Positions 32,101 through 64,000 of a stretch of DNA of 64,000 bases are shown here, in pieces. Position numbers and translations under genes: made by a program. The notes below the pieces were generated by a model that was not told the DNA's origin, ran no database searches, and worked only from the letters and a program-made list of their open reading frames with translations. The DNA is from Kordia aestuariivivens (GTDB lineage: Bacteria > Bacteroidota > Bacteroidia > Flavobacteriales > Flavobacteriaceae). How positions within the stretch are numbered: the stretch's first letter is position 1; each line of letters starts with the position of its first letter. The stretch spans positions 62,001-126,000 of the forward strand of contig NZ_JACGWS010000014.1 in the NCBI RefSeq assembly GCF_014397005.1. Reading direction: 5' to 3'.

Positions 32101-33728
32101 TCAATCGTATTTACATCATGGATAAGTTTTTGTTTATCGTCAGCAGTGATTAATTCTATATTGCGTATGGGTTGTTCGGGTGTTTCTAGCAATAATTTAG
32201 TTAGATGACTAAAATACTTGCCTATTCTTTCTACAGTTTCCCTTTCAAATAAATCAGTACAGTATTCAATATCTAAAACTATTGAATCTGCCCTGCTTTC
32301 AATAGTAAATGTCAAATCGAATTTTGCAAATACACCTTCTGAAGGTTTTATTTCTATCTGAATTTCATTGGCATTCCCATTAGCGTTTGCGTTCGCTGCT
32401 TCAGTTTTAGCTAATTCCCCAGTGATCTGATCATTTTGAACAGATAGCATAATTTGAAATATAGGCGTTTTACTTAAATCTCTTTTTTGGATTACGGTAT
32501 CTACAATTTTTTCAAACGGAACTTCTTTGTATTTTAATGACTGCACAATGTTCTCTTTGACACTTTCTATGATTTGAAAGAAATTAGAGTTTTCATCTAG
32601 CTTTGTACGTAAAGGAAGTGTGTTTACAAAATAACCTATTAAACTTTGTGTTTCTTTATGGTCTCTATTGGCAACAGGTGTTCCAATACAGATGTCACTT
32701 TCATCCGTGTATTTGTATAATAGAATGTTTAGAACACTCGTCATAAACATAAAGGTTGTCAGTTGTTTTTCTTTCACAAATTCATCAATACTTGTCTTTA
32801 GTTCAGTATCAATGTTACTTGTATGTACTGCTCCATTTATGCTTTGTATAGACTTTCTAGGGTAATCAAATGGGAAGTCTAAGGTTTTGTAATTATGTAG
32901 TTGTTTTTTCCAAAAGTTTAAAGATTCTTTTAAGAAGGTTTCATCATATCGTTTTCTTAGCCATATGGAGTAATCCGCATATTGAATTGGGAGTTCTTCT
33001 AAATTAGGAACAAGTCCGTGAGAAAGCGCGTGATATATTTGTACCAATTCAGTAAATAGAATTGGCATGGACCATCCATCATATACCAAATGATGCATTA
33101 CTATATGAAGCATATATTCCTTTTCTTCAAGTTTTACTAAATGAACTCGTATTAAGAAATCATCTTTTAGTGTAAAAGGAGCTGCTGTATCATTTTTAAA
33201 GATTTCATTTAGGCTGCCTTTTTCCGTGACTTTGGTAAATTTCATTTTCCACAAGTCACTGTTAAGAACATATTGGTAGGTGTCTAAGTTTTCGTCTTGT
33301 CGTATGACAGTTCTTAAAACTTCGTGACGTTCAATGATTGCTCGGATGGTTTTTTCCAAAAGCGAGATATCCAAACCTCCTTTTATATTAAATACGTTGC
33401 TCGAATGATAGTTTGCGCTTCCTTGCAATTGATCAACAAACCATAGCTGTTCTTGCGCAAAAGTCAGTGGAATTTTACCAATTTCATCCCTATTGTATTT
33501 TGTTATTTTTTGTATGCCTTTGCTTATTTCTTGAAAATTTTTGCTTTCTGCCTTCAAAAAATCCACAATGAGGCTTTTATTGCTTTTTAAAATATTTATT
33601 AAATCCTGATCGACAGTTTTGCTTTTGTCTATTTTCACTTTCAAACCATCTTCTTCAAGAAAGACATCAACACCTAGCTTTTTGGCATTGGTTAATATTT
33701 CTAAAACGGTATCATTTGCAGAATTCAT
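29133..33728 (-). CDS. Terminal NRPS module with reductive release, TubC-C-A-T-R
   Basis: 1531 aa. TubC-like docking domain 1-60 (start MNSANDTVLEILTNAKK), C (HHLVYDG near 213), A (YTSGTSGVPKG near 709), T (GGYSLLI near 1084, Tyr in place of the usual His) and a Lys2/CAR-type thioester reductase domain: nucleotide-binding GATGFIGTYLL near 1171, later YGASKCVGE (Tyr/Lys pair, near 1326). R domains release the chain as an aldehyde or, after a second reduction, an alcohol, using NAD(P)H. The A code D-G-W-H-M-G-N-V-V-K is identical to that of the neighbouring TE-type module, and the first about 1080 residues are strongly alike. The two genes are therefore tandem duplicates with different chain-release ends. 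Confidence 0.95.
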   Translation of the reverse strand: MNSANDTVLEILTNAKKLGVDVFLEEDGLKVKIDKSKTVDQDLINILKSNKSLIVDFLKAESKNFQEISKGIQKITKYNRDEIGKIPLTFAQEQLWFVDQLQGSANYHSSNVFNIKGGLDISLLEKTIRAIIERHEVLRTVIRQDENLDTYQYVLNSDLWKMKFTKVTEKGSLNEIFKNDTAAPFTLKDDFLIRVHLVKLEEKEYMLHIVMHHLVYDGWSMPILFTELVQIYHALSHGLVPNLEELPIQYADYSIWLRKRYDETFLKESLNFWKKQLHNYKTLDFPFDYPRKSIQSINGAVHTSNIDTELKTSIDEFVKEKQLTTFMFMTSVLNILLYKYTDESDICIGTPVANRDHKETQSLIGYFVNTLPLRTKLDENSNFFQIIESVKENIVQSLKYKEVPFEKIVDTVIQKRDLSKTPIFQIMLSVQNDQITGELAKTEAANANANGNANEIQIEIKPSEGVFAKFDLTFTIESRADSIVLDIEYCTDLFERETVERIGKYFSHLTKLLLETPEQPIRNIELITADDKQKLIHDVNTIDDDFIKNDTETILDYFDRQVAQNPNALAVISPEKNEELTYKELNDKADKIAYYLQESYNIQKDDLVGIMLERSPSMIISILGVLKSGAGYLPIDLDYPVDRKMFMIENSKIKSLIISSVDIFDEILAADLNVFIIDSKLGFIPAYPGKSLNSSSDDGLAYTIYTSGTSGVPKGVMIEHKSLLNLCTYHTNLHNITKDARVALYQGTSFDGSVWELFPYLIAGARLYPIESNEIRFDMRKLVEFIEENEITHIHVPTQIVLNLIDQNISLKNTIVMTGGEALKIPTTNSLKIYNNYGPTEGTVVSTDYKVSPYDLGSIPIGKPISGVSTYVLNKNKQLLPQGCIGELYIGGNGIARGYLGKEELTNTVFLKDNFLNRGSKMYKTGDLVRLRNDGNLEFKGRVDRQVKIRGYRIELSEIENVLMEIEAISNAIVIDKVENQNISLVAYLVIDGDFNKKEIIRYLTTKVPGYMIPSFIVKIDALPLNENGKIDIKKLPDVEGNNTLRENYIAPRNQVEKDITEIWEQLLGLKKIGINDDFFELGGYSLLITKMIPLFKKKFKEDVEVKTLFNFSTIAKLADYITNKETLKDKLFKVLDLEKESKLDIDFSMIDSLEKFKLVPEHILITGATGFIGTYLLKDLLINTQATIYCLVREKEGLVCKERILNSLKDYNLYDASFDDRIVAVKGDLSKAYLGIELKMYNQLSKKIDYVYNSATYMDHHSPYSKLKNTNVYGTIELLNFSLKNKLKKIIHLSNLGRFIPPHHENKFFEWSSREYEIHHEFNGYGASKCVGEIMMKKSLDAGMPIQIYRIGLTTGDLITGKIPKSQWFTKLLKSCYELGAYTSEYMAPITPIDFVSEVITKLSLQNDLEQNIFHLNNNRLVSLKRIFDNSVGLDKKIENLTLQQLLMKFLEDSDKLHLPILSFIDFNSPELINALEGNHPVREDGIEDDMTHNSNELTMRIVKEKLGLEFPDMKDYVKHYVRSAVNDYN

Positions 33729-43551: not shown

Positions 43552-44418
43552 TTATGTCCAATAGACAACTCTATTTTGAGAAGAACGTCCCAAAAAACGT
43601 CCTATGGTAATTCTACTATCTTTTTGTTTTTTTTCTACTGCGTGAATGTAATTTGCATTGATAAAATACAAATCTCCTGGTTGCGTTTCTAGATGCAAAC
43701 AATCGATGTCTTTTATTGCTGAAAACGGATAAGGATAGCCCGTAAGCTCTATACCTAGTTCTTTTTTACAAGCTTCATCGGGGAAAAGATTCCACAGTAA
43801 TAAATTTGCGTTTTCAGTATTTTCTACACATAAGTTACAAGCTACTACATGCTTAACAGTGCTTATTTCAAAATTATCTCTTTTCGCAAAATGCAATTGT
43901 GCTAAATCTTCATGTGCATTTAATGCAAATTTTTCTTCTTTCTTATCTTTCCACAACCTCGCAGTAAACATATTACAATAGTTTCCTTTATGATATGCGG
44001 GACCAAAGTGTGTATCTTTTTGCAATAAATATTCTCTGAAAGAAGTTTCTAACATGAAGTCATTTAAGTCATCATAATCATAAATACTATCTACAAGATT
44101 ATTAACAGCTTCTTTTGTCTGAATACATTCATCAAAAAATGCTCTCGTTTCTTTGTGGAATTGGGTTGCACCAATTTGAGAAACTTCAACAAAATCATCT
44201 GAAGCCCTGTTTCCGCCGTTGGTTTTCTCTATAATTTCATGAAATTTGTTCTTGAGTTTTTCGCAACTATCATGACCTATATAGTTTCTCACAATGTATA
44301 CTGGGGCACTATCTTCTTTCCCGAGAAACATATCATTGATGATATCTAAATTTGGGATATGTGTATCTTCAAAAATTTTGAAGTTATCTTTTGGATATGA
44401 TTTTCCTATTAATTTCAT
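43552..44418 (-). CDS. 2-oxoglutarate/Fe(II) oxygenase (PHD-like)
   Basis: 288 aa. The facial triad is visible as His169-x-Asp171 (NAHEDLAQ) and His259 (NANYIHAVE), with Arg269 or Arg274 available for the 2-oxoglutarate carboxylate (SRITIGRF). The intact Asp means a hydroxylase/desaturase rather than a halogenase, which has Gly or Ala there. No signal peptide. The gene starts 6 nt after the end of the Val-type NRPS and ends 88 nt before the trimodular NRPS, so it is inside the NRPS operon and probably oxidises a carrier-bound residue or free amino acid. I do not recognise a characterised close relative, so the substrate is unknown. Confidence 0.8.
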   Translation of the reverse strand: MKLIGKSYPKDNFKIFEDTHIPNLDIINDMFLGKEDSAPVYIVRNYIGHDSCEKLKNKFHEIIEKTNGGNRASDDFVEVSQIGATQFHKETRAFFDECIQTKEAVNNLVDSIYDYDDLNDFMLETSFREYLLQKDTHFGPAYHKGNYCNMFTARLWKDKKEEKFALNAHEDLAQLHFAKRDNFEISTVKHVVACNLCVENTENANLLLWNLFPDEACKKELGIELTGYPYPFSAIKDIDCLHLETQPGDLYFINANYIHAVEKKQKDSRITIGRFLGRSSQNRVVYWT

Positions 44419-47926: not shown

Positions 47927-50900
47927 CTAGAATTCTATTTCTTTATAAGAATCCATATCGTCTATAAATTCTTCTTGTGTTATAGACGCTATTTCTTTTT
48001 GTTCTTTAATGTGTTCCGACATTTCTTGTATCGTGTTATTATTAAAGATGTAAACAAGATCAAGTTTTACATCGAACTCCTGATATATTTTAGAAACCAA
48101 TTGTGTTGCATTTATTGAATTTCCTCCTAAATCAAAAAAGCGATCTGTGATAGTGACTTCTCGAACATTTAAAAGTATTTTGAAAAAAGAAATGAGTTTG
48201 TTTTCGAACTCATTGTATTGGTCAGAATCTAGTTCAAAAGCATATGCTTCAAGCTTCTTTAAAAACCCAAGATTTGCGTATTCGAGTGCTTTATAAGTTT
48301 GCTTGTGAAACAATTCAGATTCGTTAATCAAGTTTTTCTCCCACAACCAAGTTTCTTTTTTGTTTTCTTGTATTGCTTCTGTAACAGAATGGTTATTTAC
48401 AGTATCTTTTTCAATCGTAATCGTGCTTTTTTTAGTTGCAAGCAGCGGAAGTTCTTGATCTAAATAAGAGGTAATATAATCTGTATGTTCAGAAACATCT
48501 TTCATTGCTATTTTGTAACCACTAGTGTTATCTTGATCAAATGGCATCCATGTATTCTTGATTAAAAAATCATGAATAGGAACATTCTTTTTAGTATCAA
48601 TATATTTGGCAACAATTAGTTTACAGTTACTTTGAGCATATTTTTGTTTCAGAATAGTGATAATCGTTTCTTCAACTGCGCGTCCTAAAACTCTACAACT
48701 CAACATGAAATTTTCAATAAACAAAGTTTCACCTTTCAAGCTAACTAAAATAGCACCTACCAAACCGTAGGTTCCAAATTTGTCTCGTACGTTAATAACA
48801 AAGCATGCATTGTCTTTTTCTTTGATAAAGTCAATGACTTCTTTATTGTTTTTTCTAATTCCGTTAAGAGAAAACTGATTTGTTCTATGTGTTAATTGGG
48901 CAACTCTGTCTATTTGAGCGTCGTTCACATGATTGAAACTTAGCTCTAGCTTCAAGCTTTTCAGAAAGTCTTCTAAATTTAATTTTTTACGAGATGCTAT
49001 TCGTGTTTTTTCAGTTTTGTACATTTCAGTTCTTAAAGTATCTTCTTTAGATACCTTCTGTTTATCAAAACTAATTACGTGCTGGAGAAATTCATCAAAA
49101 TGCTCCGGTTTTTTAGGCAATTCTAGCGTAAGTACTTCTGGATTTTCTTCCATCATTAAATGACATTCTAAAGGATTGTCATCAACAAAAGCAAAGCTTT
49201 CTAAACCTAAGTTTAACTCTTCTGCTAATTGTTGAATGTTTCCTGCTTTTGAATCCCAGTTAATTTTCCATCCGACAAGATGCTCTTTGGTAAGAAGCAT
49301 ATCTGGATGATTTTCAAAAACATCCCATACGGCACTTTCGTTATTCTTGCTTAGAAGCACAAGTAAAAATCCTTCTTTATATTTTTGAATCATAAACTGT
49401 TGTAATAGTTTATGTCCTTCTGAAATCACTAAATCATTCACATTACTTTCTCCACATACACCTTCCCATAAAGTATGATCACAGTCCAAAGCAATTACTT
49501 TACAGTTTTTGCTTTTAAGTCCCCATAAAACTCTGTTTATTCGTTGTGCAATGGTGTAAAAAAATGTTTCCGTAAAAGGAATGTGCCCCATTTCTTCGGT
49601 GAGATCGTCAAAAACTTGAAGAGAAGGAAGTTCGTTTTTTGGGTTTTCTAAATGAATGCAGTGAATGTTTCCTAACTCCGCTAATGCTTTAATACTTTTC
49701 TTGTTTAAAAGATGTATATAATCAACAATTTTTTGGTCATATAGATTTTCATTAGCATGAGAAAAAACCATGATAATGGTACTCGTTTGCGACTGATGCG
49801 TGATCACTTTTAGTAAGTCTTCATACACCTGATCTAGTTTTGCTTGAAAGTTTTCAGCGTGTTTTTCTTCACCAACTAAATAATCTTCAAAACGATTTAG
49901 TACAACTAGTATAGATTTCGCATTCTCGGCATTGTTATCGTTTAAAGCGATAAACTCTTGAAATACTTGATTGTATTTTCCTAATTTAATAGGATGCGGT
50001 TGCGCAAATTCATCTAAAAACCATTCAAGTTTTCCAGCTAATGGAGCAACAGTATACGAGGATATAATATGAAGCGTATCTAATGATTTTGAAACAGGTT
50101 GAGGCTCCGAGATTTTTTCTTCGAGGTATTCTATTGTTCCATCTGGCAACCATCTTCCTTTTTTTCCGCTGTCAATTAAAAAAGTACCTTCTTGTATTGG
50201 GTTTTCGATGAACGCAAGATCATTTTCTGAATCTGATACAGCTGTTTGTATATATACTTTTCCATATACACCTATGGATTGTTCCATAAATTTATCGGAT
50301 AATATCATTGTTTTTGGGTTTGAAACCGTCGTTTCAGCGAATTCGCTAACGGTTGTCTTTTTTCCAAAATTTGATAGTTCTTCTTTTTCTTCTAAAGAAA
50401 GAAAATCGATATTTGAAATTAATTGATTTGGAAAATCTAGTACATTTTCAAGACAATTTTGCAAATGTTGAACTAATTTTTGAATAAATGATGCATCATA
50501 CACATCGGTATTGTATTCAATTCTTAAACGCAATTCGCCATTATCTTCTAGAAAATCAAATTTAAGATCAACTTGGCTGCTAGCCGTTTTTAATTTTTCA
50601 TAAGCAGCTATTTTTAAACTTTCATTTTCAAGTTCCGTTGTTCCTGTAACAGAATCCTGATTTTGAAAAATTGCAACAACATCAAACAACGCAGATCTGC
50701 TCAAATCCCTTTTGATACTTAGGTCACTTAATAACTTATTAAAAGGATAGTTTTGATTTTCAAAATCATTAAGTAATGATTCTTTCTGTATTTCTACTAA
50801 TTCTAAAAAGCTATTCTCATTTTTAAAAGCTGTTCGTAAAGCCAGCATATTGGCGTACATTCCAATCTGATTTTCTAAATCTGGATGTTCTCTACCTGCA

Positions 50901-51928
50901 ACTAGCGTTCCTATAATAATATCTTCATCACCAGTATATCTGTTAAATAAAGCATTTAATACAGCTATTAACACTGTAAACACAGTTGTGTTTTGTTGTG
51001 CCGAAAAGGTATTAATCTTTTTAAGCAGTCCTTTTTTAAAAAAACTCGTCGTAGTACTGCCATTATAGGTTTTCACCTTTGGACGTTCCTTAAAAGAAGG
51101 TAGATTTAATACAGGAATTGTTTCTCCTAATTTTTTCTTCCAATATTCTTTTTGAAACACTCCTTTTTCGGTTTCCAATCTATTTTTTTGCCAAACCGCG
51201 TAATCTTTATATTGAACTTCTAACGGAGTTAAATTTGTTTCAGTTTGAGCTTCTATTTCATCGTAAAACTTTAGCGTTTCTTTCATGATAAGAAACATAG
51301 ACCAACCATCAACAATAATATGATTAAACACGCAACACAAAATAGTTTCTGATGTGTTTATAGATATTGTACTTACTCTAAATAATGGTCCAGTTGATAG
51401 GTTGAATTTACTTGTGATTTCCGTATGTAAAGTATCGTGAATTTCCTTCTCGGTATGATTAGAGTTTTCAATGTTGTGGTGTATTATTTTAAAAGAGGTC
51501 TCATCTTTTGGCAGAATAAACTGCGCTGGAATTCCTTTTTGATTTTCTTTAAAAATGGTTCTCAGTACTTCATGCCGCACTATCATTTTTTTAAATGCCA
51601 TTTCTAGAGATGAAATATTCAGAACACCTTCACATCTAAAAACACTAGTGATATTGTGAGTTGTATCTTTGTGCCCCAATTGGTTTAAAATCCAAAAAAC
51701 AGACTGAGAATAAGATAATGGATAACTTTCGCTTGATTTTGCAACCGGAATAGGTTCATAGTTTGATTGAGATAATAGCCTGATAAGTGCTTCTTTATTT
51801 TTTTTTATATCCTCTATAATCTCATCACTAAAAACTCCTTTAGCAGCACTAATTTTTAGTTTTCCATTTTCAATTGAAAGATGAATGCCTTTCTCTTTAA
51901 CTTTTTTAATAATTTGATATACACTCAT
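47927..51928 (-). CDS. Hybrid NRPS TubC-C-(A relic)-FkbH-T, glyceryl-type loading
   Basis: 1333 aa, first biosynthetic protein of assembly line 1. TubC-like docking 1-52; C domain with NHIIVDG near 203 (first His replaced, catalytic second His kept); a scrap of an A domain at about 545-605 (IGVYGKVYIQ, then GRWLPDGTIEYLEE, with SGK where TGD is expected); an FkbH-type HAD domain (DCDHTLWEGVCGE near 814, FVDDNPLE) followed by its GNAT-like part (LTHRTNQFSLNG); T domain (GGNSINA near 1269). FkbH domains load a glyceryl unit from 1,3-bisphosphoglycerate onto a carrier. Here the HAD domain replaces most of an A domain. Tail ends YKEIEF. What the C domain joins to the glyceryl unit is unknown. Confidence 0.9.
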   Translation of the reverse strand: MSVYQIIKKVKEKGIHLSIENGKLKISAAKGVFSDEIIEDIKKNKEALIRLLSQSNYEPIPVAKSSESYPLSYSQSVFWILNQLGHKDTTHNITSVFRCEGVLNISSLEMAFKKMIVRHEVLRTIFKENQKGIPAQFILPKDETSFKIIHHNIENSNHTEKEIHDTLHTEITSKFNLSTGPLFRVSTISINTSETILCCVFNHIIVDGWSMFLIMKETLKFYDEIEAQTETNLTPLEVQYKDYAVWQKNRLETEKGVFQKEYWKKKLGETIPVLNLPSFKERPKVKTYNGSTTTSFFKKGLLKKINTFSAQQNTTVFTVLIAVLNALFNRYTGDEDIIIGTLVAGREHPDLENQIGMYANMLALRTAFKNENSFLELVEIQKESLLNDFENQNYPFNKLLSDLSIKRDLSRSALFDVVAIFQNQDSVTGTTELENESLKIAAYEKLKTASSQVDLKFDFLEDNGELRLRIEYNTDVYDASFIQKLVQHLQNCLENVLDFPNQLISNIDFLSLEEKEELSNFGKKTTVSEFAETTVSNPKTMILSDKFMEQSIGVYGKVYIQTAVSDSENDLAFIENPIQEGTFLIDSGKKGRWLPDGTIEYLEEKISEPQPVSKSLDTLHIISSYTVAPLAGKLEWFLDEFAQPHPIKLGKYNQVFQEFIALNDNNAENAKSILVVLNRFEDYLVGEEKHAENFQAKLDQVYEDLLKVITHQSQTSTIIMVFSHANENLYDQKIVDYIHLLNKKSIKALAELGNIHCIHLENPKNELPSLQVFDDLTEEMGHIPFTETFFYTIAQRINRVLWGLKSKNCKVIALDCDHTLWEGVCGESNVNDLVISEGHKLLQQFMIQKYKEGFLLVLLSKNNESAVWDVFENHPDMLLTKEHLVGWKINWDSKAGNIQQLAEELNLGLESFAFVDDNPLECHLMMEENPEVLTLELPKKPEHFDEFLQHVISFDKQKVSKEDTLRTEMYKTEKTRIASRKKLNLEDFLKSLKLELSFNHVNDAQIDRVAQLTHRTNQFSLNGIRKNNKEVIDFIKEKDNACFVINVRDKFGTYGLVGAILVSLKGETLFIENFMLSCRVLGRAVEETIITILKQKYAQSNCKLIVAKYIDTKKNVPIHDFLIKNTWMPFDQDNTSGYKIAMKDVSEHTDYITSYLDQELPLLATKKSTITIEKDTVNNHSVTEAIQENKKETWLWEKNLINESELFHKQTYKALEYANLGFLKKLEAYAFELDSDQYNEFENKLISFFKILLNVREVTITDRFFDLGGNSINATQLVSKIYQEFDVKLDLVYIFNNNTIQEMSEHIKEQKEIASITQEEFIDDMDSYKEIEF

Positions 51929-55065: not shown

Positions 55066-55782
55066 TTATTTACTTATAATCAAGCTATTAAAATAGCTTT
55101 TAAAAAATTCTAGGTGTTCTAAAATAAAAAAGTGTCCACCTTTAAATTCTGTAATTAAAACTTCTGAAGATGTTTCTTTTTTCCACATAGACATCTCATC
55201 GTATGAAGTTGGTTCTTCTGATCCATAAAAAACATCAATAGGAATTGAGAGTTGATTACTATTAGTATAGTTATAACTCTCCCAAAGTTTAATATCAGAT
55301 CGTAAAACTGGCTCAAAAAACTTTTGAAGTAGTGGCTGCACTATAAATTCATTTGGTACGCCTCCAAAGCTAATTAACCTATCCCAAAATTCCTTTTCTG
55401 GCAAATGCGAAAACCTATCCCGTGTAGCAGATGGTGGTCTAAAACCAGACACAACGAGTTTTGTTGGTTTTACTACTTCGGGATCTTTTTCAATTCGTTT
55501 TGCAATTAAAAAAGCGACCATCGCTCCAAGGCTATGTCCATAAATAAAATAATTTTCTACATCACGTAACTCCTTGATTAGTATCGGATACAAATCGTCT
55601 ACAAGTTGATAAATATCAACTATAAAGTCTTCTTTAATTCTATCATTTCTACCTGGATAATTATAAACAACAATATTTTTGAAGCCTTGAAAAATTTTAT
55701 CGTAAGAAGATTCATTTCCTCCAGCAAATGGAAAAGCAAAAACTTTTACAGTATCTTCTAAAGTGTTGCATATTTTCTTCAT
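55066..55782 (-). CDS. Type II thioesterase (editing), second copy
   Basis: 238 aa alpha/beta hydrolase. FAFPFAGGNESSYD near the N-terminus, VYNYPGRNDRI, nucleophile GHSLG (Ser84) and GGHFFILEH (His217) are all typical of external thioesterases that clear blocked carrier domains. The acid position reads GSEEP, with Glu where many relatives have Asp; a nearby Asp (YDEM) may serve instead. It is only distantly similar to the TEII at 5174-5887, so the two are not a recent duplication. It ends the run of tailoring genes and lies before the transporter gene. Confidence 0.92.
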   Translation of the reverse strand: MKKICNTLEDTVKVFAFPFAGGNESSYDKIFQGFKNIVVYNYPGRNDRIKEDFIVDIYQLVDDLYPILIKELRDVENYFIYGHSLGAMVAFLIAKRIEKDPEVVKPTKLVVSGFRPPSATRDRFSHLPEKEFWDRLISFGGVPNEFIVQPLLQKFFEPVLRSDIKLWESYNYTNSNQLSIPIDVFYGSEEPTSYDEMSMWKKETSSEVLITEFKGGHFFILEHLEFFKSYFNSLIISK

Positions 55783-55889: not shown

Positions 55890-56771
55890 TTAACTTACGT
55901 AACTCATATACGATTTTAATCTAGGATAAATATACTTTTCTGGAATCCCAAGTCCAAGTCCTAAATAAAGCATAAAATTATAATATCCGTTTTTAATGGG
56001 CGCTCCTTTTAGTATACTAAATACACCTTTTCTAGCAGAAGAGGAAGTGTGCCAATCAATATTAAATGAAATAGAATCACTCAAGGAACGAACATGATGA
56101 AGTGTGTATGGAGGAATATACAAAACATCTCCTGATTGGACATGAACAGATATTGGTGTTACTTTTTTTGTCAATGGAAATGTATCAAAATCCGGTTTGT
56201 TAGGGTCAAATTTAGACCATCGCCAAGAATTCATATAACAGAATTTTTTCTGCTCTGGTGGAACCAGCGTAAACTCTTTTTCTCCATCAACCTGAAAAAA
56301 AAGATTGTGTGTTCCTAGCGTATCAAAATGTAAGGGTGTAATGCTATTTTTGGGACCAATAAAGAATTGGGCATAATTTGGCCAATTTGACCAATACCAG
56401 TTAGGAATGAGTTCTTTTGGGAACGGATTTACTTCTTCTATCAGTTTAGGAATAAAATAGAAAAGTGGTACATCATGTAAATAGCCAATATCAGATGTAT
56501 TGTTTTTACTTGTTCCTTTAGCTTTATTTAAGGAGTTTAAGTAATCTTTCAATGCTACGGGTTTCAATACACCTTCTGAGACATCTCCTTGTTTTACACC
56601 TAGGCTAATATTACTTGCCATAGATTTTAAATAATCGTTATCCCAGTTCAACGCCTTCCATTTGGACATGAGTCCTTTAATTACGACTGGCTTCCCTTTT
56701 TTCACGTAGTTGTCATGAAATTCTTTTGCTGTAATAGAATTTACATAATCGATGTTTATTTTATTATCCAT
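55890..56771 (-). CDS. JmjC/cupin_8 Fe(II)/2OG hydroxylase (FIH-like)
   Basis: 293 aa. His148-Phe-Asp150 in TPLHFDTLGTHN and a distal His at 225/226 (PYTLHHVRSL) give the metal triad; Lys165 in GEKEFTLVPP is placed like the 2-oxoglutarate-binding Lys of FIH. No signal peptide. FIH-type enzymes beta-hydroxylate Asn, Asp, His or similar residues, and members occur in peptide clusters acting on free or carrier-bound amino acids. It sits between the N-hydroxylase and a type II thioesterase. The trimodular NRPS has an Asp-type A domain, so beta-hydroxy-Asp is one idea, but nothing in the sequence proves it. Confidence 0.83.
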   Translation of the reverse strand: MDNKINIDYVNSITAKEFHDNYVKKGKPVVIKGLMSKWKALNWDNDYLKSMASNISLGVKQGDVSEGVLKPVALKDYLNSLNKAKGTSKNNTSDIGYLHDVPLFYFIPKLIEEVNPFPKELIPNWYWSNWPNYAQFFIGPKNSITPLHFDTLGTHNLFFQVDGEKEFTLVPPEQKKFCYMNSWRWSKFDPNKPDFDTFPLTKKVTPISVHVQSGDVLYIPPYTLHHVRSLSDSISFNIDWHTSSSARKGVFSILKGAPIKNGYYNFMLYLGLGLGIPEKYIYPRLKSYMSYVS

Positions 56772-56919: not shown

Positions 56920-58257
56920 TTATTCGCAAATAGTTTGTGGTGATTTTTCTTGTAAGTTTTCAACCATAGATTTTTCTATGAGCGCTGCACGAAGTGAAAG
57001 GTGACTGAAAGAACCTGCGTCTGCCAAACCATGAGTTGATTCACACAATCCATTAAGGTAGATTTTAGGAAAATTACTTTTTCCATCAACAGGTATCAAT
57101 TGGTAATCACGAGTAACACTAAATGTTCCATCTTCTTCTCGTTTATAAAACTTTTTAATGTTTTCAAGAAGTGGATGAATTAATTCTTCATTTTCTCTTG
57201 CCCCAAAATTTCTAAATCCAGTTCCTAAAATAACTGCATCGACAGATTGATTTTGCAAAGCACCTGTATGCAAATCTTTTATTTTTAATTGCACTTGATT
57301 ATCCAGCTCGTAAGCTTCTATAACTTCTTGATTTTTATATATTTGAATTGTATTATTGTTATGCAAACGATTTTCATACAACGTAAAATACAATTCCTTG
57401 AGAATGTCTTCGTCAACCGAACCGTAGTTACTTCTAATTATTTGAGCACTCAATTCGTTCTTTGATTTTTTTGAAGAATTATAAAAATAATCAATGTTTT
57501 CTGGCAATAATAAATCTTCGGTAAACGGACTAGTGTCTTTCAGTACAAAGCTAAATTTACGATGAATACAGATAATTTCAGTTTCTGGAAATTTAGCATG
57601 TAAATCAAGAATAATCTCTACAGCACTTTGACTACCTCCTATGATCGCAATTCTTTTAGGTTTTGTCTGCGAAAATTGTTGAAGTAGTAGATTGTATTTA
57701 GTAAAATGAGCTACTTTTTTGCTTAAAATAGACTTAAATACTTTAGGAATATTATGCGACCTTCCAGGTGCAAAGGATATACTACGTGCTTTATAGGTTT
57801 CTGAACTCGTTTTTATTTCAAGAAATACGTTCTCTTCAAAATCAGATTCAACAATAGAAATATCTTTTACCTTTGAATCATAAGAAACCAAATTATCAAA
57901 TCTTTTAGCTACCCATTCTACATATTTAGAATATTCACTTCTTGGAGGATAAGGCGCATCCAAATTCAAATAATCTAAAAGTCTGCCTACATCTTGAAGG
58001 TAACTTAAATAACCAAACTGACTGCGAGGATTTCGTGGTGTAGCGAAGTCTCTAAGCGGATTGTGTTGTATATCGCTCCCAGGAATTGTAACACCTAATT
58101 GCCAACCGGGAGTTGTACTTGCATCAAGGAATTTAATTGTTCGCTCCGACTCCATTTCTTGATGAGCTACTGCTAATGCGATATTAGAAGGACCGAATCC
58201 TACACCAATCGTATCATAAAAATTATTTTTATGAAAATCCTTGTTATTATTATTCAT
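56920..58257 (-). CDS. L-ornithine N5 / L-lysine N6 monooxygenase (PvdA/IucD/Spb38 family)
   Basis: 445 aa flavoprotein. FAD-binding GVGFGPSN (res 18-25), the family string NPLRDFATPRNPRSQFGYLS, NADPH-binding GGSQSAVE and the later DTSPFTEDLLLPENIDYFY plus the C-terminal GLCESTHGLADAGSFSHL are all as in N-hydroxylating monooxygenases of ornithine or lysine. They use NADPH and O2 to make N-OH diamines, for hydroxamate siderophores or as the first step toward an N-N bond. Ornithine and lysine cannot be told apart by eye. No formyl- or acyltransferase for a hydroxamate is present in the window, while a cupin and a MetRS-like protein are, which favours the N-N-bond use. Its gap from the gene upstream is 168 nt. 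Confidence 0.9.
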   Translation of the reverse strand: MNNNNKDFHKNNFYDTIGVGFGPSNIALAVAHQEMESERTIKFLDASTTPGWQLGVTIPGSDIQHNPLRDFATPRNPRSQFGYLSYLQDVGRLLDYLNLDAPYPPRSEYSKYVEWVAKRFDNLVSYDSKVKDISIVESDFEENVFLEIKTSSETYKARSISFAPGRSHNIPKVFKSILSKKVAHFTKYNLLLQQFSQTKPKRIAIIGGSQSAVEIILDLHAKFPETEIICIHRKFSFVLKDTSPFTEDLLLPENIDYFYNSSKKSKNELSAQIIRSNYGSVDEDILKELYFTLYENRLHNNNTIQIYKNQEVIEAYELDNQVQLKIKDLHTGALQNQSVDAVILGTGFRNFGARENEELIHPLLENIKKFYKREEDGTFSVTRDYQLIPVDGKSNFPKIYLNGLCESTHGLADAGSFSHLSLRAALIEKSMVENLQEKSPQTICE

Positions 58258-58370
58258 TTTGATAAATATTAAATATGATTTATGTTTAAGTACGTCTTAA
58301 AATGTTGAGAATAAATTTTTAGTTTTTATACTAATACTCAACAGATACTTTTGTTGCTTGTCTGTATAAT

Positions 58371-58386
58371 CTACTTTAGAAAGTAG
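58371..58386 (+). terminator. Hairpin followed by a T-run, facing the opposite strand
   Basis: CTACTT-TAGA-AAGTAG, then TTGG and a run of about ten T on the plus strand, as in an intrinsic terminator for rightward transcripts. All genes here run leftward, so it would block antisense transcription into the operon or be chance. On the minus strand the hairpin is not followed by U. Confidence 0.3.
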
Positions 58387-58425
58387 TTGGCTTTTTTTTT
58401 TGGAATAGGCCCTGTACTTATCGTT

Positions 58426-59397
58426 CTATATAAATTCATGAGCAATTTCAAACTTGGCATTTTCCAATTGCCAAAGTGCATATTTTTGAAGCATTGATTC
58501 TCTTAAAAATCCAAAACGTATGTTTCCAACAACTGTTTCCCATTTATTTTGTTTCAAGAGTTGCATCCATTCATTAGATGAATTTTCTAATGATAAAAGC
58601 TTATTAATTATTTCCAATGCTGCGTATGTTTCTAGAAAAAATGTGAATGGATATTTTTGATTTGAATTGTAATATTGATCATTAATTTGCTTAGCTTCTA
58701 TATACTTGCTTGCATGTGTATACCCAAAGACAAAGATTTTTGGCTTCCTAAAGCCAATCGAATTTATCAATTCAGGATGAACAAGATCATCTGTAAAATA
58801 CAACTCATCTGTGTGTTGAAGTTCGGAATAGTTTTTCTTTGCAAAATCTATAGAATTCTTAAAATTCCCAATAAATAATACATTCTTGGCTTCAGATAAT
58901 TTATCAACAATTGTTACAGTTGGTACTTTAGAAAGTCGCTCTAATACTAAAGATGAGAGTTCAACACCGTGAATACTTTGGTCATACCCAACATATAATG
59001 TATGTGCTTTTTTCTCAGAAATTTCATTGGTTATTAAATCTGCCAAATCACTATCCTTACCACAAATACGAAAAGCACAATCGAATTTTTCGGTTAAAAT
59101 ATCAGAAGTAGCTGCAGGAAGAAAAACAGGGATATTCTTTTTCACATAAAAAGGCAAAGCATGTTTTGCTGCCGTTGAAGAATAATGACCTATTACAAAA
59201 TGAGCACCTCTTTTAATAAGATTAGTTGCTGCTTGCACGCCTCCTGCTTCCGAAGCAAAGTCGTTTTCCCAAATTAATTCTACCTTTTTTTCATCAAACG
59301 CTAAGTTTGACCAAGCTAATTTAATAGCGTCAACAAAAGTGTCTTGATGAATAGAACCATTTAGTGAAAGGTCTGCTGTAGCTCCAATTCGTATCAT
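58426..59397 (-). CDS. Periplasmic-binding-protein-like protein (LIVBP/AmiC fold) without signal peptide
   Basis: 323 aa, type 1 periplasmic-binding fold of the branched-chain amino acid/amide family (IRIGATADLSLNGS, QAATNLIKRGAHFVIGHYSS, IPVFLPAATSD, ETYAALEIINKLL). It starts directly with the first beta strand: there is no signal peptide, no lipobox and no ABC permease or ATPase gene beside it. Its ATG overlaps the stop of the DAO-type gene by 4 nt (59394-59397), so the two are translationally coupled. It is therefore probably cytoplasmic, either a ligand sensor (as AmiC) or a binding/chaperone protein for a pathway intermediate. Function is not known. Confidence 0.75.
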   Translation of the reverse strand: MIRIGATADLSLNGSIHQDTFVDAIKLAWSNLAFDEKKVELIWENDFASEAGGVQAATNLIKRGAHFVIGHYSSTAAKHALPFYVKKNIPVFLPAATSDILTEKFDCAFRICGKDSDLADLITNEISEKKAHTLYVGYDQSIHGVELSSLVLERLSKVPTVTIVDKLSEAKNVLFIGNFKNSIDFAKKNYSELQHTDELYFTDDLVHPELINSIGFRKPKIFVFGYTHASKYIEAKQINDQYYNSNQKYPFTFFLETYAALEIINKLLSLENSSNEWMQLLKQNKWETVVGNIRFGFLRESMLQKYALWQLENAKFEIAHEFI

Positions 59398-60536
59398 AGT
59401 ATCGTAGTATTAAAAGCAAAGTGATCTGAAGGTAACTTATATCTCCATTGAACAGTATTAGGCATCTCTTTTCCATCAATATAGCCGTTGATTTCTTCTG
59501 CTACACTTTTAGAAATAGAAATACAACATTTATATCCTCTACCAGAAAAACCAGTCGCTACATAGAGACCATTATTATTAGGTAAAAACTGAACAATGGG
59601 TTTTTTAAATTCGGTATATGAATCATATCCATAAATACAATTAATAGGGTTTTTGTTTATTTCTGGTTTTAAAAACCGGTTTAATCGTTCCATAGAATTA
59701 TCAATAATTTTTACTGAATCCTTACTGAGTTCTTCTGGAAACTTTGTTTTTTCAAATTTTTGACTTCCTGTATAAAAAGATAAACCAGATCCCGGTGCTA
59801 CATATACTTCTATTTCTTCATCCACAACTGGTATATCAATTTTGTGTTTGTTAGTTGCAACATGAGTCAGTGAAATAGACCGTGTATGAATAGGCAAATT
59901 CTCCACTATTTTATTCGTTAAAGCTCCAGCTGTCATTAAAACTACTTTTGCCTTAACGACTCCTTCTGATAGCTGAACTTCCCAGTTATCAGCACTCGTT
60001 GAACGGATGCTTTGAACAGTACAATTATCATAAAGTTCTCCTCCTTTTGATAGAAAGCCCTCAACAAAGTTAGCGGCAGTTAAAGCTGGATTCCCATAGC
60101 CTCCATGTTTCTCGTAGATACCTACTTTGTTTTTAGAATTTTTGATCCAAGGTGCTTTTTCGAGCAATTTTGATTGAGACAAAATTTCCATTGGGTATAA
60201 GTTGCGGTCTACGAAACTGAACGTATTTTTTAAATCTGGTAATTTTTGTTCATCTAGAAGGTATAGAAATCCCGATTTATTAAAGGGGCTAATTCCTGGA
60301 TAGTTGTTTTCTTTCCAATTTAATAAATCAATGATAGAAGTATACGATTGAAAACTATGTTCTATATCCGGATCATACACTCTAGTAATACCTCTAGAAT
60401 AGCTCGTAGCTCCACAACTTCCTGCTTTTCCTTTTTCAATAAGAAGTACTTTGTTCTTTGTGTTTTTTAAGAAAAATGAACAGGAGCTTCCATAAATACC
60501 GGCTCCGATTACGATGATGTCAAATACATTATTCAT
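59394..60536 (-). CDS. FAD-dependent oxidoreductase, DAO/glycine-oxidase family
   Basis: 380 aa. Dinucleotide-binding IIVIGAGIYGSSCS (res 8-21), then SYSRGITRVYDPDIEHSFQS, a mid-protein GGYGNPALTAANFVEGFL and a C-terminal YVATGFSGRGYKCCIS, as in the D-amino-acid/glycine/sarcosine oxidase superfamily. Such enzymes oxidise C-N bonds of amines. In hydrazine pathways an FAD enzyme cleaves the lysine-glycine N-N adduct to free hydrazinoacetate (S56-p1, Spb39, from memory), and this gene or the next flavoprotein gene could do that step. It is 22 nt after the group A flavoprotein gene and overlaps the binding-protein gene by 4 nt, so it belongs to the same operon. Confidence 0.8.
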   Translation of the reverse strand: MNNVFDIIVIGAGIYGSSCSFFLKNTKNKVLLIEKGKAGSCGATSYSRGITRVYDPDIEHSFQSYTSIIDLLNWKENNYPGISPFNKSGFLYLLDEQKLPDLKNTFSFVDRNLYPMEILSQSKLLEKAPWIKNSKNKVGIYEKHGGYGNPALTAANFVEGFLSKGGELYDNCTVQSIRSTSADNWEVQLSEGVVKAKVVLMTAGALTNKIVENLPIHTRSISLTHVATNKHKIDIPVVDEEIEVYVAPGSGLSFYTGSQKFEKTKFPEELSKDSVKIIDNSMERLNRFLKPEINKNPINCIYGYDSYTEFKKPIVQFLPNNNGLYVATGFSGRGYKCCISISKSVAEEINGYIDGKEMPNTVQWRYKLPSDHFAFNTTIL

Positions 60537-60558
60537 TAATATGTTGGGTACTATATAA

Positions 60559-61764
60559 CTATGAAGAAAGTAACAAATTACTCAATAGTTGTTTTTGAAA
60601 TTCTTCAGGAGTTATTATTCGATAAATTAGTTTTAGATATTGTCGCGAAATTTCATCATTTGTAATGATAAGGTCATAAAAGTCTTTTTCGGAGGCAGAC
60701 AAAGCTTCTGATGCTGAAAGTGTAGAAATTCCCTCAAAATGTGGTGTTAATCTATCTTTGTGAGACTTACTGTATTCCGAAAGTGCTTCTTCCTTTGTTT
60801 TTTTATTGTCGAAAAACTCCATTGTATGCTTGTATAACCATTCGGCAGTATTTAAAGCAAAAGCGCAGCCTGTACCTGATACTGGGTTAGTTTTCATTGC
60901 AGCATCACCTATAAATGCAATTCCATTTTTTACTGGACTTCTGTACAGGTTATCTATATTTAGCATCCAAATAAAATCGTCAATTCTCTCGGCATTATCT
61001 AAACTTGGGATTTCTTTTAATTTGGCTATAAATTGTAATACTTTAGTATCCATATCCTCACAATTCTTCCAGTCATCATAGTCAGCATTATTAAAAAATA
61101 AACCAAACAGAACAACTCCATCTCCAAGTGCCCCAGCATACACAGAAGCATCATCAAGAACCCAATGAGCAGATGTTTTAATATCAATACCCTTGTAGTA
61201 TGTGAAAAAAGTGAATTTATTACTTGGATTGAGCTTTGCTTCGTTTTTGGTGAGTTTCGCAATTTTTGAATGCGCACCATCTGCAGCAACTACTAAATTG
61301 GCAGTAATTTCTATACGACCATTTGACCCAGATACCACAATTCCATCTGCTATATCATTAGTATAAGTAATCGATTTCAGCACATGTTGTTCCAAAAATG
61401 TTACATTAGATTCTTCCTCTAATACTTTTATCAAGTATGGATCTAATAATTCACGCTGTATATTAAATCCGTATATATCTGAATCTGTACCAAATAATTC
61501 TTCATGATTTATAGTTCCTGAAGGTAGATGCATGTTTAGTCCATGTTTTGCACCTCCTATTTTCTTGATATCCTCAAAGAGGTTAAGACGTTTTAAAATA
61601 AGAACTCCCACAGGTTGGATAAAGTGTGTGCAATTTACTTTGTATTGATCCTTTTTTTTTCGATCAACGATGACAACTTTAAGGTTTTTCCTAGCATAGA
61701 AAAGTGCTGCAGCACATCCTGCTATTCCTGCACCAACTATAACAACATCTGTTTTTAATTCCAT
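60559..61764 (-). CDS. Group A FAD-dependent monooxygenase/oxidoreductase (PHBH fold)
   Basis: 401 aa. VVIVGAGIAGCAAALFYARK at the N-terminus binds the FAD ADP part; VAADGAHSKIAKL mid-protein and FIGDAAMKTNPVSGTGCAFA near res 288 are the DG and GD motifs of the p-hydroxybenzoate-hydroxylase-type family. It starts 3 nt after the MetRS-like gene ends, so it is tightly coupled to the N-N bond genes. Flavoenzymes of this kind hydroxylate or dehydrogenate; oxidation of a hydrazine to a hydrazone or diazo precursor is plausible but inferred. It is not a tryptophan halogenase: the diagnostic WxWxIP string is not seen. Confidence 0.8.
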   Translation of the reverse strand: MELKTDVVIVGAGIAGCAAALFYARKNLKVVIVDRKKKDQYKVNCTHFIQPVGVLILKRLNLFEDIKKIGGAKHGLNMHLPSGTINHEELFGTDSDIYGFNIQRELLDPYLIKVLEEESNVTFLEQHVLKSITYTNDIADGIVVSGSNGRIEITANLVVAADGAHSKIAKLTKNEAKLNPSNKFTFFTYYKGIDIKTSAHWVLDDASVYAGALGDGVVLFGLFFNNADYDDWKNCEDMDTKVLQFIAKLKEIPSLDNAERIDDFIWMLNIDNLYRSPVKNGIAFIGDAAMKTNPVSGTGCAFALNTAEWLYKHTMEFFDNKKTKEEALSEYSKSHKDRLTPHFEGISTLSASEALSASEKDFYDLIITNDEISRQYLKLIYRIITPEEFQKQLLSNLLLSS

Positions 61765-61767
61765 ACT

Positions 61768-63294
61768 TTATTTCTTAACTGTTGCTTGGGAATACTTTCT
61801 TGAATTAAGCCAGTCCATAATTTCATTTTCATTGATTAAAAGTTTATCTATTAATCTTTCGGAAAATGAAGGGTGAATTGGTTTACTAAGCACTACATAT
61901 ATAAAAGAAGCTCTCATAGCCTTTTCATTTTGTCCAGAACTAAATAACTCTGCAATGTATTGTAGAAAATCTTCAAGCCTTTTCGCAATATTTTGAATAG
62001 AGAATGCCTGTAGTTCCGAGAAAAAATCCCATTTAGAAAAAATTTCATCAATCTTGTTTAATTCTAACTCATCATATTCATCTTTAGAAAATCGCAAACA
62101 TGTTTTAGTAGTATTAATTTTCTCTTCAATTAAATTGATTGTGGGAGAAAATACATTTTGATACCAATCAGTGAATGCCTTCATTTCAAAGTTTGTTACT
62201 TCTTCTTCAGGAGATATTAATGCCATGTAAAAACGAACACCATCGGAAGAGTAATCCTCCAAAATGTCATCTACCCAGATAGCATGACTTCTACTTGTAG
62301 AAAAATCATCTCCATTCAATTTCAAGAATTTATTAGTAATCTGAGTGAAATTTTGTGTAAATCCATCAATATTAGATGCTAAAGACGGATACACAATGGC
62401 ATGACTAAACGAACAATCGAACCCAAGAAAATTCACGACTTTCGTGTTTTTGTCTTTCCAAAATTCCTCATGACGTTGCGGTTGCTTTACACTTTCCCAG
62501 TATTCTTTAGAAGCAGCTAGATAGCCCGCCAATCCAGAAAACCACGTGTGTAAGGTTATTTTTTTTCCTTGAAAAGTTAAATCTATTCCATTTCCGTCTG
62601 GGCGATCTATAAACCATTCTATGTTTTCATTTGATAAAACCTCATCAATGAATGTTCTTAAATGTTCTCTTATAGGGTTTTGCTTGTATAATTCTTTCAG
62701 ATGATCTTTGTACTTAGAAATTTTCAGGAACATTCGTTCCTTATTAACAAATCCCATAGGTTTTTTAGAAATTATTGAGATAAAATCGCCCATTTCTTCT
62801 AAAACAGGATAATTAGCACAAGATTCGCATTGACTGGCATCTGATTCTGATCCACAATAATTACAAGTTCCTTTTGCAAATGCCTCATATCCATACTGAT
62901 TGTCTTCAAAAGAATATGGTACTCTAATTTGCTTTTCACCAATTCCATTTTTTTCTATAGCATTTTGCAAAAGAAATAGTATGGCTTCTTTGTAATATTT
63001 GTTTTCACAAGATTTTAAAAACCAATCCACCTTAATATTTGCTTTTTTCAGCGAATTTTCAATTCTAGAACCATACTTTAAAGCCCACTCAAATCTGATT
63101 TCTTTATTTTCTAATGCTTTACTAGCTACATAATCCTGATGATCATCAGAATAGCTGGTAAAAAACACATCATCATTCTTTAACCTACGCATCCTAGTAA
63201 AAACATCAGCCGCAAGAAACGGTCCTGATAAATGCCCTAAGTGCATATCTCCGTTTGGAGTTGGCGGTGCAATGGTTACAATATATTTGTCCAT
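61768..63294 (-). CDS. MetRS-like protein of hydrazine-synthetase type
   Basis: 508 aa class I aminoacyl-tRNA synthetase core: TPNGDMHLGHLSG (HIGH-type motif HLGH, res 18-21), a zinc knuckle CNYCGSESDASQCESC near 143-160, and FSTSRSHAIW near 331 in place of KMSKS. It is shorter than housekeeping MetRS and the C-terminal part does not show a normal continuation to an EMAP-like tRNA-binding domain. MetRS-like domains joined to a cupin form the hydrazine synthetases (Spb40 in S56-p1, Tri28 in triacsin), where the MetRS part activates an amino acid such as Gly that is attached to the hydroxylated nitrogen of N6-OH-Lys or N5-OH-Orn. Here the cupin is a separate gene ending 6 nt upstream. The amino acid used cannot be deduced. 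Confidence 0.85.
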   Translation of the reverse strand: MDKYIVTIAPPTPNGDMHLGHLSGPFLAADVFTRMRRLKNDDVFFTSYSDDHQDYVASKALENKEIRFEWALKYGSRIENSLKKANIKVDWFLKSCENKYYKEAILFLLQNAIEKNGIGEKQIRVPYSFEDNQYGYEAFAKGTCNYCGSESDASQCESCANYPVLEEMGDFISIISKKPMGFVNKERMFLKISKYKDHLKELYKQNPIREHLRTFIDEVLSNENIEWFIDRPDGNGIDLTFQGKKITLHTWFSGLAGYLAASKEYWESVKQPQRHEEFWKDKNTKVVNFLGFDCSFSHAIVYPSLASNIDGFTQNFTQITNKFLKLNGDDFSTSRSHAIWVDDILEDYSSDGVRFYMALISPEEEVTNFEMKAFTDWYQNVFSPTINLIEEKINTTKTCLRFSKDEYDELELNKIDEIFSKWDFFSELQAFSIQNIAKRLEDFLQYIAELFSSGQNEKAMRASFIYVVLSKPIHPSFSERLIDKLLINENEIMDWLNSRKYSQATVKK

Positions 63295-63300
63295 ATTAGT

Positions 63301-63678
63301 TTAGTTTGAATTTGAATTGATATACCCTGAAATTATTTCGGCATTCCACCATAATGCGTAAAAATGACAATCTTCTTTATAAGGGTTTTCTAAAAAGTGT
63401 GATACTCCTTTGGGAATATAAACGATATCTCCAGTCTCAACTTCACGGATTGTTTCATCTAAATAAACCTTAGCTTTACCACTAGTTACAATGAACATTT
63501 CTTTTTCATCTGATGGTTCATTTACATGTTCTAAGGAGATTGTATCTGCTCTTAGAACACAATATGCTCCTCCAAAAGGAAAAGGATGTTTTTCTTCTCC
63601 CCAAGGTAAAAGGCGTTGACCGTCAAGTCCATATTCATGTTTTAAATTTTCCCAGTCTATTTTTTTAAATTGTTCCAT
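63301..63678 (-). CDS. Small cupin, partner of the MetRS-like protein
   Basis: 125 aa single-domain cupin: EHVNEPSDEKEMFIVTSGKA (first cupin motif with His and Glu residues) and GDIVYIPKGVSHFLENP (second motif with His). In fused hydrazine synthetases a cupin domain performs the rearrangement that makes the N-N bond from an O-acylated hydroxylamine; here a free cupin lies 2 nt after the aminotransferase gene and 6 nt before the MetRS-like gene, so the fusion is split into two coupled genes. Alone, the sequence would only be called a cupin; the call rests on its neighbour and the N-hydroxylase. Confidence 0.78.
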   Translation of the reverse strand: MEQFKKIDWENLKHEYGLDGQRLLPWGEEKHPFPFGGAYCVLRADTISLEHVNEPSDEKEMFIVTSGKAKVYLDETIREVETGDIVYIPKGVSHFLENPYKEDCHFYALWWNAEIISGYINSNSN

Positions 63679-63680
63679 AG

Positions 63681-64000
63681 TTAATTAATTGATATTAATG
63701 CGTTTTCAAAAGCATATAAAATGTCGTCTGCGTTTTTCTCGCTAATGTTTAAAGGTGTTAGTAATCTTAAAACACTGTTTTCTCTTCCACCCGATTCTAT
63801 GATGAGTCCATTGTGCAGGCATGAGCGTTGGATTTGGGCAGCTAGTTTAGTATTTGGAGGATAAGAACCTAAAGCGTTAGGAGATTCATTTGTATCTACA
63901 ATTTCTACCCCAATCATTAAGCCTCTTCCTCTTATTTCTCCTATGAATGGATATTTTTGTTGAAGTTTTAAAAGCTCATTTCTTAGATAATTTCCTTTCT
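63681..64000 (-). CDS. Diaminobutyrate-type class III aminotransferase, C-terminal part
   Basis: The frame is open to the window edge, so only the last about 106 residues are seen. PFIGEIRGRGLMIGVEIVD and later NGLIIESGGRENSVLRLLTP are diagnostic of 2,4-diaminobutyrate:2-oxoglutarate aminotransferases (EctB/Dat/PvdH group), PLP enzymes that make 2,4-diaminobutyrate from aspartate semialdehyde. The PLP lysine lies outside the window. It is 2 nt before the cupin gene and likely heads or continues the operon. It could supply Dab to an NRPS or to the N-N-bond pathway. Confidence 0.85.
   Translation of the reverse strand, partial: KGNYLRNELLKLQQKYPFIGEIRGRGLMIGVEIVDTNESPNALGSYPPNTKLAAQIQRSCLHNGLIIESGGRENSVLRLLTPLNISEKNADDILYAFENALISIN

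Follow-up and report, generated by a model that had tools for sequence, protein, structure and literature searches.

We report here that a 64,000 nt stretch of the genome of the flavobacterium Kordia aestuariivivens (contig NZ_JACGWS010000014.1, positions 62,001 to 126,000; hereafter the window) carries a stand-alone cupin gene next to the gene for a protein resembling methionyl-tRNA synthetase (MetRS). As the best explanation for the whole locus, we propose that the two proteins are probably the subunits of a split hydrazine synthetase acting on N4-hydroxy-diaminobutyrate (N4-hydroxy-Dab). Their genes belong to one minus-strand run that encodes a Dab aminotransferase, the cupin, the MetRS-like protein, two flavoproteins, a solute-binding-like protein and a flavin N-hydroxylase (Table 1). 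Four marks of a hydrazine synthetase are present: a MetRS-like protein apart from ordinary MetRS, an adjacent cupin, an N-hydroxylase nearby and the catalytic Glu of the cupin. Judged from sequence, what is new here is an all-split branch of such systems with a changed cupin metal site and a lost KMSKS-type lysine. The form found in the window, which has Asn at the changed metal site, is linked in gene content to a Dab aminotransferase and a carrier-like protein.

From the observed gene set, its conservation, its placement and its motifs we infer the following pathway. The aminotransferase would make L-2,4-diaminobutyrate, the presumed substrate, and the N-hydroxylase would convert it to N4-hydroxy-Dab. 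As in published relatives, the MetRS-like protein would adenylate a second amino acid and transfer it to the hydroxylamine oxygen, giving an unstable ester, which the cupin would rearrange by breaking the N–O bond and forming an N–N bond. The DAO-type flavoprotein could then oxidise one C–N bond of the adduct and release a hydrazino acid. An adenylation (A) domain and a carrier-like protein encoded upstream probably load the same or a related amino acid, and the loaded unit may serve ring closure (for example to a pyridazinone) or a nonribosomal peptide synthetase (NRPS). Such a pathway would place hydrazine-type chemistry in a flavobacterial NRPS locus.

The MetRS-like branch and its gene company

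The prediction in the initial annotation that the MetRS-like protein would stand apart from housekeeping MetRS was borne out. In a tree of 49 rows, 37 MetRS-like rows were separated from 12 ordinary MetRS by a branch with 100/100 support, and the methionine pocket is changed. The ordinary set was chosen by annotation or by absence of the gene company described below, and six of its members, including two unannotated haloarchaeal frames, came from plasmid records. A cupin was found with 35 of the 37 MetRS-like rows, the exceptions being L070 (on a cut contig) and L127 (for which the profile gave none). The window protein falls in one group of 23 rows (100/100), termed the window branch. The other group, of 14 rows (97/87), contains fused and split members and includes azaserine-type enzymes, among them an AzsN-like enzyme (L092) from the same record as L130, a locus whose gene order agrees with the published azs gene table. 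The four Bacteroidota rows cluster together (100/99).

Two motifs were compared across these proteins, using the ordinary set of the tree but with L099 replacing L101. At the methionine pocket, 71 of 74 window-branch loci (three unreadable) and 15/15 proteins of the other group read PP[TS], versus [LW]PY in 12/12 ordinary MetRS. The Lys of KFSTSR, a KMSKS-type motif, is Asp (22) or Asn (51) in 73 of the 74 window-branch loci, with one unreadable, and is kept in 10 of 12 ordinary MetRS. Because the two ordinary MetRS of the comparison set that are haloarchaeal also lack this Lys, its loss need not stop adenylation.

On phylogenetic grounds, we do not count the MetRS-like protein among the tRNA synthetases; it neither groups with ordinary MetRS nor keeps their methionine pocket. 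A second or antibiotic-resistant methionyl-tRNA synthetase might be read from its class I catalytic domain and from the name of the NCBIfam family NF008859 (methionine--tRNA ligase). This is hardly credible given the tree split, the changed pocket, the linkage to cupin and N-hydroxylase genes and the presence in the genome of another MetRS, which is 28% identical to the MetRS-like protein. Furthermore, the family name misleads because the model fits the MetRS-like branch. Proteins from Photorhabdus (814 bits), Xenorhabdus (672), Pseudomonas (613) and Burkholderia (686) exceed its cut-off of 553 bits, and the window protein (501), L010 (507), L069 (526) and L043 (484) fall below it, whereas three ordinary MetRS score 128–180 bits on NF008859 versus 860–1004 on NF001100.

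A search of plasmid records for MetRS-like proteins matched at least 312 records, with 60 listed, and a three-row alignment searched against species genomes gave 364 confirmed stretches, of which the best 80 are loci L008–L087. The window branch as used here comprises 74 loci (L006, L007, L008–L078 and the window), 23 assigned by the tree and the rest by similarity and motifs; the set is heavy in Pseudomonas, and L007 and L072 come from the same species. Among the best 80 of 364, the Bacteroidota are Kordia jejudonensis (55%) and two metagenome-assembled genomes (MAGs), from Chitinophagales (52%) and Saprospirales (51%). The remaining window-branch members are Pseudomonadota, mostly Pseudomonas. 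At E values of 1e-60 to 1e-70, the window genome was the only match among 149 genomes of the class, 397 of the family and 395 of the phylum, in overlapping samples for which the family and phylum searches scored three candidates per genome. The same searches gave no MetRS-like match in two genomes of the same genus. The window branch looks rare in the Bacteroidota searched. By its ordinary MetRS, which is joined by short branches, the window genome would lie near K. jejudonensis.

Across the 74 window-branch loci, a cupin gene is present in 72, a DAO gene in 73, a solute-binding-like gene in 72 and an N-hydroxylase gene in 69, a degree of retention indicating that the association is not due to chance. 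The missing-gene cases fall in five loci. Three of these (L008, L070, L075) are on cut contigs, and the genes of L078 are broken; L011 is a complete 21-kb locus with intact genes in which no N-hydroxylase and no solute-binding-like gene was matched. The fused cupin-MetRS proteins of L079, L082 and L083 (669–679 residues) are likewise encoded beside N-hydroxylase, DAO and solute-binding-like genes, as are split pairs from Pantoea and Deinococcus (L088, L089), and in L087 the solute-binding-like gene lies on the opposite strand about 9 kb off.

The initial annotation had taken such cupin and MetRS-like parts to be known as fusions from mostly actinobacterial hosts. This does not hold, since a 2010 survey described MetRS paralogues encoded next to the cupin, naming actinobacteria, proteobacteria and firmicutes (PMC2922099), a 2021 study assayed a stand-alone cupin and pairs (PMC8664883), and a review lists several split pairs (PMC11705231). 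The systems of the 2010 survey resemble the window locus in having a MetRS paralogue, a fused or adjacent cupin, an N-hydroxylase without exception and periplasmic-binding-type proteins. They differ in that the distribution stated there includes no Bacteroidota, and the passages of the survey compared here do not mention metal-site or KMSKS variants (PMC2922099). Separate cupin and MetRS-like proteins also occur as RHS1 and its MetRS partner in Rhodococcus jostii, as D5UDN8–D5UDN9 and as Afn8/Afn9, with an N-hydroxylase in the cluster for RHS1 and Afn. Spb40, Tri28, AzsN and PyrN have the same two domains and similar N-hydroxylase and DAO company, but in them cupin and MetRS are fused. A preprint from 2025 reports the mining of 129 hydrazone clusters from Actinobacteria and Proteobacteria (PMC12154687), and a route to hydrazinoacetic acid is treated elsewhere (PMC13274452). 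A 2022 survey of Bacteroidetes natural products describes Kordia as rich in gene clusters and contains no word beginning with hydrazin or cupin (PMC9248904). Among the open-licence papers inspected, we found no Bacteroidota hydrazine synthetase, which is no proof of absence.

An altered metal site in the cupin

The zinc ligands of RHS1 are Asp63, His65, Glu69 and His103 (PMC8664883). In the window cupin, to which RHS1 has weak sequence similarity, the aligned residues are H51, N53, E60 and H94. The Glu and the last His therefore align with RHS1 ligands, but the full ligand set with its second His (RHS1 H65, PyrN H52) is absent, Asn53 and a three-residue insert being found instead. Among 72 window-branch cupins, the second His is replaced by Gln in 51 and by Asn with the three-residue insert in 16, including the window, and is His in five. 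In contrast, the second His is kept in 13/13 and the KFSTSR Lys in 15/15 of the other-group proteins compared, a set that excludes Spb40, Tri28 and PyrN themselves. The Glu (RHS1 E69, PyrN E56) is invariant in all 72 window-branch and 13 other-group cupins, as is the last His in the 72 window-branch proteins.

This Glu is essential in both RHS1 and PyrN, and the His matching the Asn53 position is needed for zinc in RHS1, and its loss leaves PyrN with less than 3% activity (PMC8664883). Because the defining role of the second His rests on RHS1 and PyrN only, we regard the window cupin as a variant that probably works alike rather than as a standard hydrazine-synthetase member. Most of this putative hydrazine-synthetase branch is without residues that are essential in two studied enzymes, and it therefore makes a direct test of the true metal-site needs possible.

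The solved structure nearest to the window cupin is Plu4264 of Photorhabdus (PDB 4mv2, 4q29; E 3e-26, or 2e-53 by profile), a member of the same cupin subfamily that differs in having an HxH motif without the insert. It is followed by 4rd7, a Cupin_2 protein (9e-18) that we take to be from Salinispora, and the assayed zinc cupin RHS1 (5uqp) matches at E 0.064 by sequence and 8e-6 by profile. In Photorhabdus bodei, a cupin equal to Plu4264 in 108/110 residues (L029:9630-9998) is encoded directly upstream of a window-branch MetRS-like gene, in a hydrazine-synthetase-type operon that holds two N-hydroxylases. The orphan cupin Plu4264 thus gains a likely function.

The cupin tree was weak, as the protein is short, many branches are long and resolution is low. 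Ten Asn-site rows grouped together (85/86), and window-branch cupins formed a 19-row set with those of Pantoea and Deinococcus (85/82) that contained none of 25 background cupins, most of them from the window genome and two others. The window-branch cupins were not one clade (two changes), with two other-group cupins among them. The expectation that the cupin would separate from unrelated cupins was therefore upheld in part: it lies outside the groups of the 25 background cupins, but resolution was weak and seven long background rows shared one large set with the hydrazine-synthetase cupins.

Diaminobutyrate, carrier-like proteins and alternative readings

The C-terminal 105 residues of the window aminotransferase, the portion compared, match diaminobutyrate--2-oxoglutarate transaminase models. 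Of 16 Asn-site cupins, 13 occur with both a Dab aminotransferase and a type-1 N-hydroxylase; L009 has only the hydroxylase, and the remaining two come from short contigs. In comparison, 0/51 Gln-site cupins have a Dab aminotransferase within about 10 kb on each side (less on cut contigs). In the N-hydroxylase tree, a 100/100 branch sets the type-1 proteins apart, and 14 of 15 of them are encoded beside a Dab aminotransferase. Because the rows are related, these counts are not independent events. The window N-hydroxylase groups with Roseobacter proteins (98/95), apart from other Bacteroidota N-hydroxylases, and matches to the FAD_binding_3 gene occur in 5/24 loci compared, all proteobacterial; on these grounds the locus looks like a mosaic. 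Dab is the substrate of Apy11 in the actinopyridazinone pathway, and Apy9/Apy10/Apy11 are similar, on gene roles only, in combining Dab N-hydroxylation, a hydrazine synthetase and oxidative C–N cleavage (PMC11705231).

Alternatively, the synthetase could use N-hydroxy-ornithine or N-hydroxy-lysine and the Dab aminotransferase could feed the NRPS only, a variant that is compatible with N–N formation. The N-hydroxylases of most characterised hydrazine pathways use Lys (PMC11705231), and the Dab gene could serve the assembly line. However, the Dab aminotransferase and type-1 N-hydroxylase also occur where no large NRPS is annotated beside them, as on a 29-kb Xenorhabdus plasmid, and the pairing in 14 of 15 tree rows likewise speaks for Dab as the substrate. 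We consider an ornithine or lysine substrate unlikely, although with an appreciable chance of being correct.

A stand-alone A domain is encoded in 14 of the 16 Asn-site loci, the window included, the exceptions being L008 (short contig) and L043. Carrier-like frames were noted in 11 of these 16 loci and, in the remaining five, were not sought or not found. The name carrier-like rests mostly on a G-[IVL]-D-S motif, size and place, as Pfam support is borderline. The 79-residue window protein has no Pfam match at 0.001 and matches PP-binding only at 0.018, below the cut-off. With respect to that cut-off (20.8 bits), the small protein of L009 (23.8) and the L066 fusion (21.8) pass, and L006 (18.2) and L076 (20.2) fall just under. 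The A-domain code, read by eye at positions we take to follow the GrsA scheme, is identical in the window, L010 and L009 (D-V-Q, M-G, G, S-L); it is D-V-E, M-G, A or V, I-V in seven proteobacterial loci and intermediate in L077. In four loci, L006 (L006:19033-19689), L066, L075 and L076, the carrier-like domain is fused to the N-terminus of the cupin; the hosts are Xenorhabdus, Enterobacteriaceae LSJC7 and two MAGs. The carrier fused to AzsN sits at the opposite end and serves a late step (PMC10445470).

In profile searches, the best match of the solute-binding-like protein is an amino-acid ABC-transporter binding protein (3ip5, 1e-36), and it also matches a Leu/Ile/Val-binding protein (1e-30). 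It retains the Ser and the Ala-Ala-Thr stretch corresponding to those of LivJ, which are presumably the ligand-carboxylate-binding residues there. In 15 of 21 loci, no more than about 13 residues separate the conserved start from the mechanical one; the other six have longer mechanical frames, and in the window the gene overlaps the one before it. These features suggest a cytosolic amino-acid-binding role.

The Asn-site cupins could even be a distinct N–N-forming class with another metal or ligand geometry and a carrier-held substrate, with the leaderless LivJ-type protein protecting the reactive hydrazine or passing it on. The A domain, the carrier-like protein and the four carrier-cupin fusions would provide the carrier. 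We regard this extension as quite improbable. If true, a His/Asn/Glu/His cupin that forms N–N bonds on a carrier would represent a new mechanism.

An azaserine-like route was considered because the GNAT, A-domain, carrier-like, KAS-III-like and P450 genes of the cluster recall the azaserine set, and it was rejected. For the window GNAT, carrier and KAS-III proteins, comparison with AzsS, AzsQ and AzsD of L130 yielded nothing significant. The A domain resembles the NRPS AzsO (26%, 2e-40) more than AzsP, to which its match is weak (22%, 1e-12), and the P450 has a weak match (28% over 120 aa, 3e-12) to an unnamed L130 protein at the place of AzsG. Furthermore, no acyl-CoA dehydrogenase domain, as expected for the azaserine and triacsin hydrazone module judged here by relatives of AzsS, AzsP, AzsQ, AzsD and AzsF, was found in the cluster proteins scanned with Pfam.

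Several observations weigh against a hydrazine synthetase acting on N4-hydroxy-Dab. The cupin His that aligns with RHS1 H65 and PyrN H52, needed for zinc or activity, is Asn53 here, and the PDB profile match to RHS1 is no closer than that to oxalate decarboxylase (4e-8). The KFSTSR Lys, which we assume is probably at the position of PyrN K458, is Asp in the window protein. The window DAO and the azaserine DAO both belong to Pfam DAO but show no significant similarity to each other (best E 0.1), and no solute-binding-like gene lies within the DNA seen of L081, L085, L086, L090, L127 and L130. A Dab aminotransferase is not exclusive to the Asn site, being present in four of the five His-site loci of the window branch. 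The other-group loci L080 and L084 have one too, and their N-hydroxylases fall outside the type-1 clade, as do the second N-hydroxylases of L012 and L029, again with a Dab aminotransferase nearby; the type-1 cut-off (phmmer score 280) was set after the scores were seen. Finally, we are aware of no window-branch enzyme that has been assayed.

The residue changes might instead mean that the pair joins an amino acid to the hydroxylamine and ends at the ester or hydroxamate (amide), with the altered cupin doing another job and no N–N bond being formed. Asn or Gln replaces the second metal His in 67 of 72 cupins, the KMSKS-type Lys is Asp or Asn in nearly every locus (73/74), and the PyrN ester falls to an N-acyl hydroxylamine when the cupin does not work (PMC8664883). 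In contrast, the Glu thought to carry N–O cleavage and the last His are invariant (72/72), and 73 of 74 loci retain the DAO gene, relatives of which cleave hydrazine adducts in published systems. An end point at the ester or hydroxamate is thus unlikely in our judgement, and we retain the split hydrazine synthetase as the probable function.

Gene layout and the adjoining peptide synthetase genes

The initial annotation had placed the N-hydroxylase, cupin, MetRS-like and two flavoprotein genes in one operon, with a Dab aminotransferase and NRPS genes as neighbours. All of these are real, and the five operon genes lie on the minus strand as listed in Table 1. A sixth gene, for the solute-binding-like protein between the flavoproteins and the N-hydroxylase, had gone unnamed. 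From the aminotransferase to the solute-binding-like gene, the intergenic gaps are 2, 6, 3, 22 and -4 bases, followed by 168 bases to the N-hydroxylase gene.

Table 1. Genes of the putative hydrazine synthetase cassette and its junction with the NRPS part (window coordinates).
Feature	Position	Strand	Remarks
Diaminobutyrate aminotransferase, 3' end	63681..64000	-	Whole gene L003:1681-3096, 471 aa, extends beyond window end
Stand-alone cupin, putative N–N-forming subunit	63301..63678	-	125 aa; Pfam Cupin_2, E 1e-11
MetRS-like protein, putative aminoacyl-adenylating and ester-forming subunit	61768..63294	-	508 aa; tRNA-synt_1g, E 2e-61
FAD_binding_3 flavoprotein, PHBH/geranylgeranyl-reductase type	60559..61764	-	Occurs in some Dab-type clusters
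DAO-family FAD oxidase	59394..60536	-	Putative hydrazine-adduct C–N cleavage; Spb39/Apy10-like role presumed
Solute-binding-like protein, Peripla_BP_6, LivJ-type fold	58426..59397	-	No room for signal peptide
Flavin N-hydroxylase	56920..58257	-	Lys_Orn_oxgnase, E 2e-80; clade found with Dab aminotransferases
JmjC/Cupin_8 putative hydroxylase	55890..56771	-	Sits at junction to NRPS part
Thioesterase-domain protein	55066..55782	-	Type II thioesterase by size and place

Upstream, beyond the window (L003:3392-8707), are genes for a GNAT acetyltransferase, the stand-alone A domain, a P450, the 79-residue carrier-like protein, a KAS-III-like protein and a NusG-like protein. Downstream of the cassette are genes for the JmjC-type protein, the thioesterase and an outer-membrane protein, and then NRPS genes up to the other end of the window.

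Among the latter, the gene at 47927-51928 encodes an NRPS with a condensation domain, an FkbH domain (TIGR01686, 284 bits) and a carrier but no A-domain match, and may load a glycerate-type unit. The adjoining NRPS genes at 29133-33728 and 24708-28949 terminate in a reductase (NAD_binding_4) and a thioesterase, such that there may be two release points or two products. Also among the NRPS genes are those for an L-isoleucine-dioxygenase-like protein (43552-44418; below the NF041274 cut-off) and a CmlA-type beta-hydroxylase (22881-24485). A CysE-like gene (serine O-acetyltransferase type) is present in the NRPS part of the window (21996-22733) and, as annotated, on the Xenorhabdus plasmid (L006:874-1635), and the gene after the K. 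jejudonensis cassette (L010:13669-14400) resembles these by eye. A radical SAM protein, of which none was seen among the window proteins scanned, is encoded inside the K. jejudonensis cluster (L010:5076-6764).

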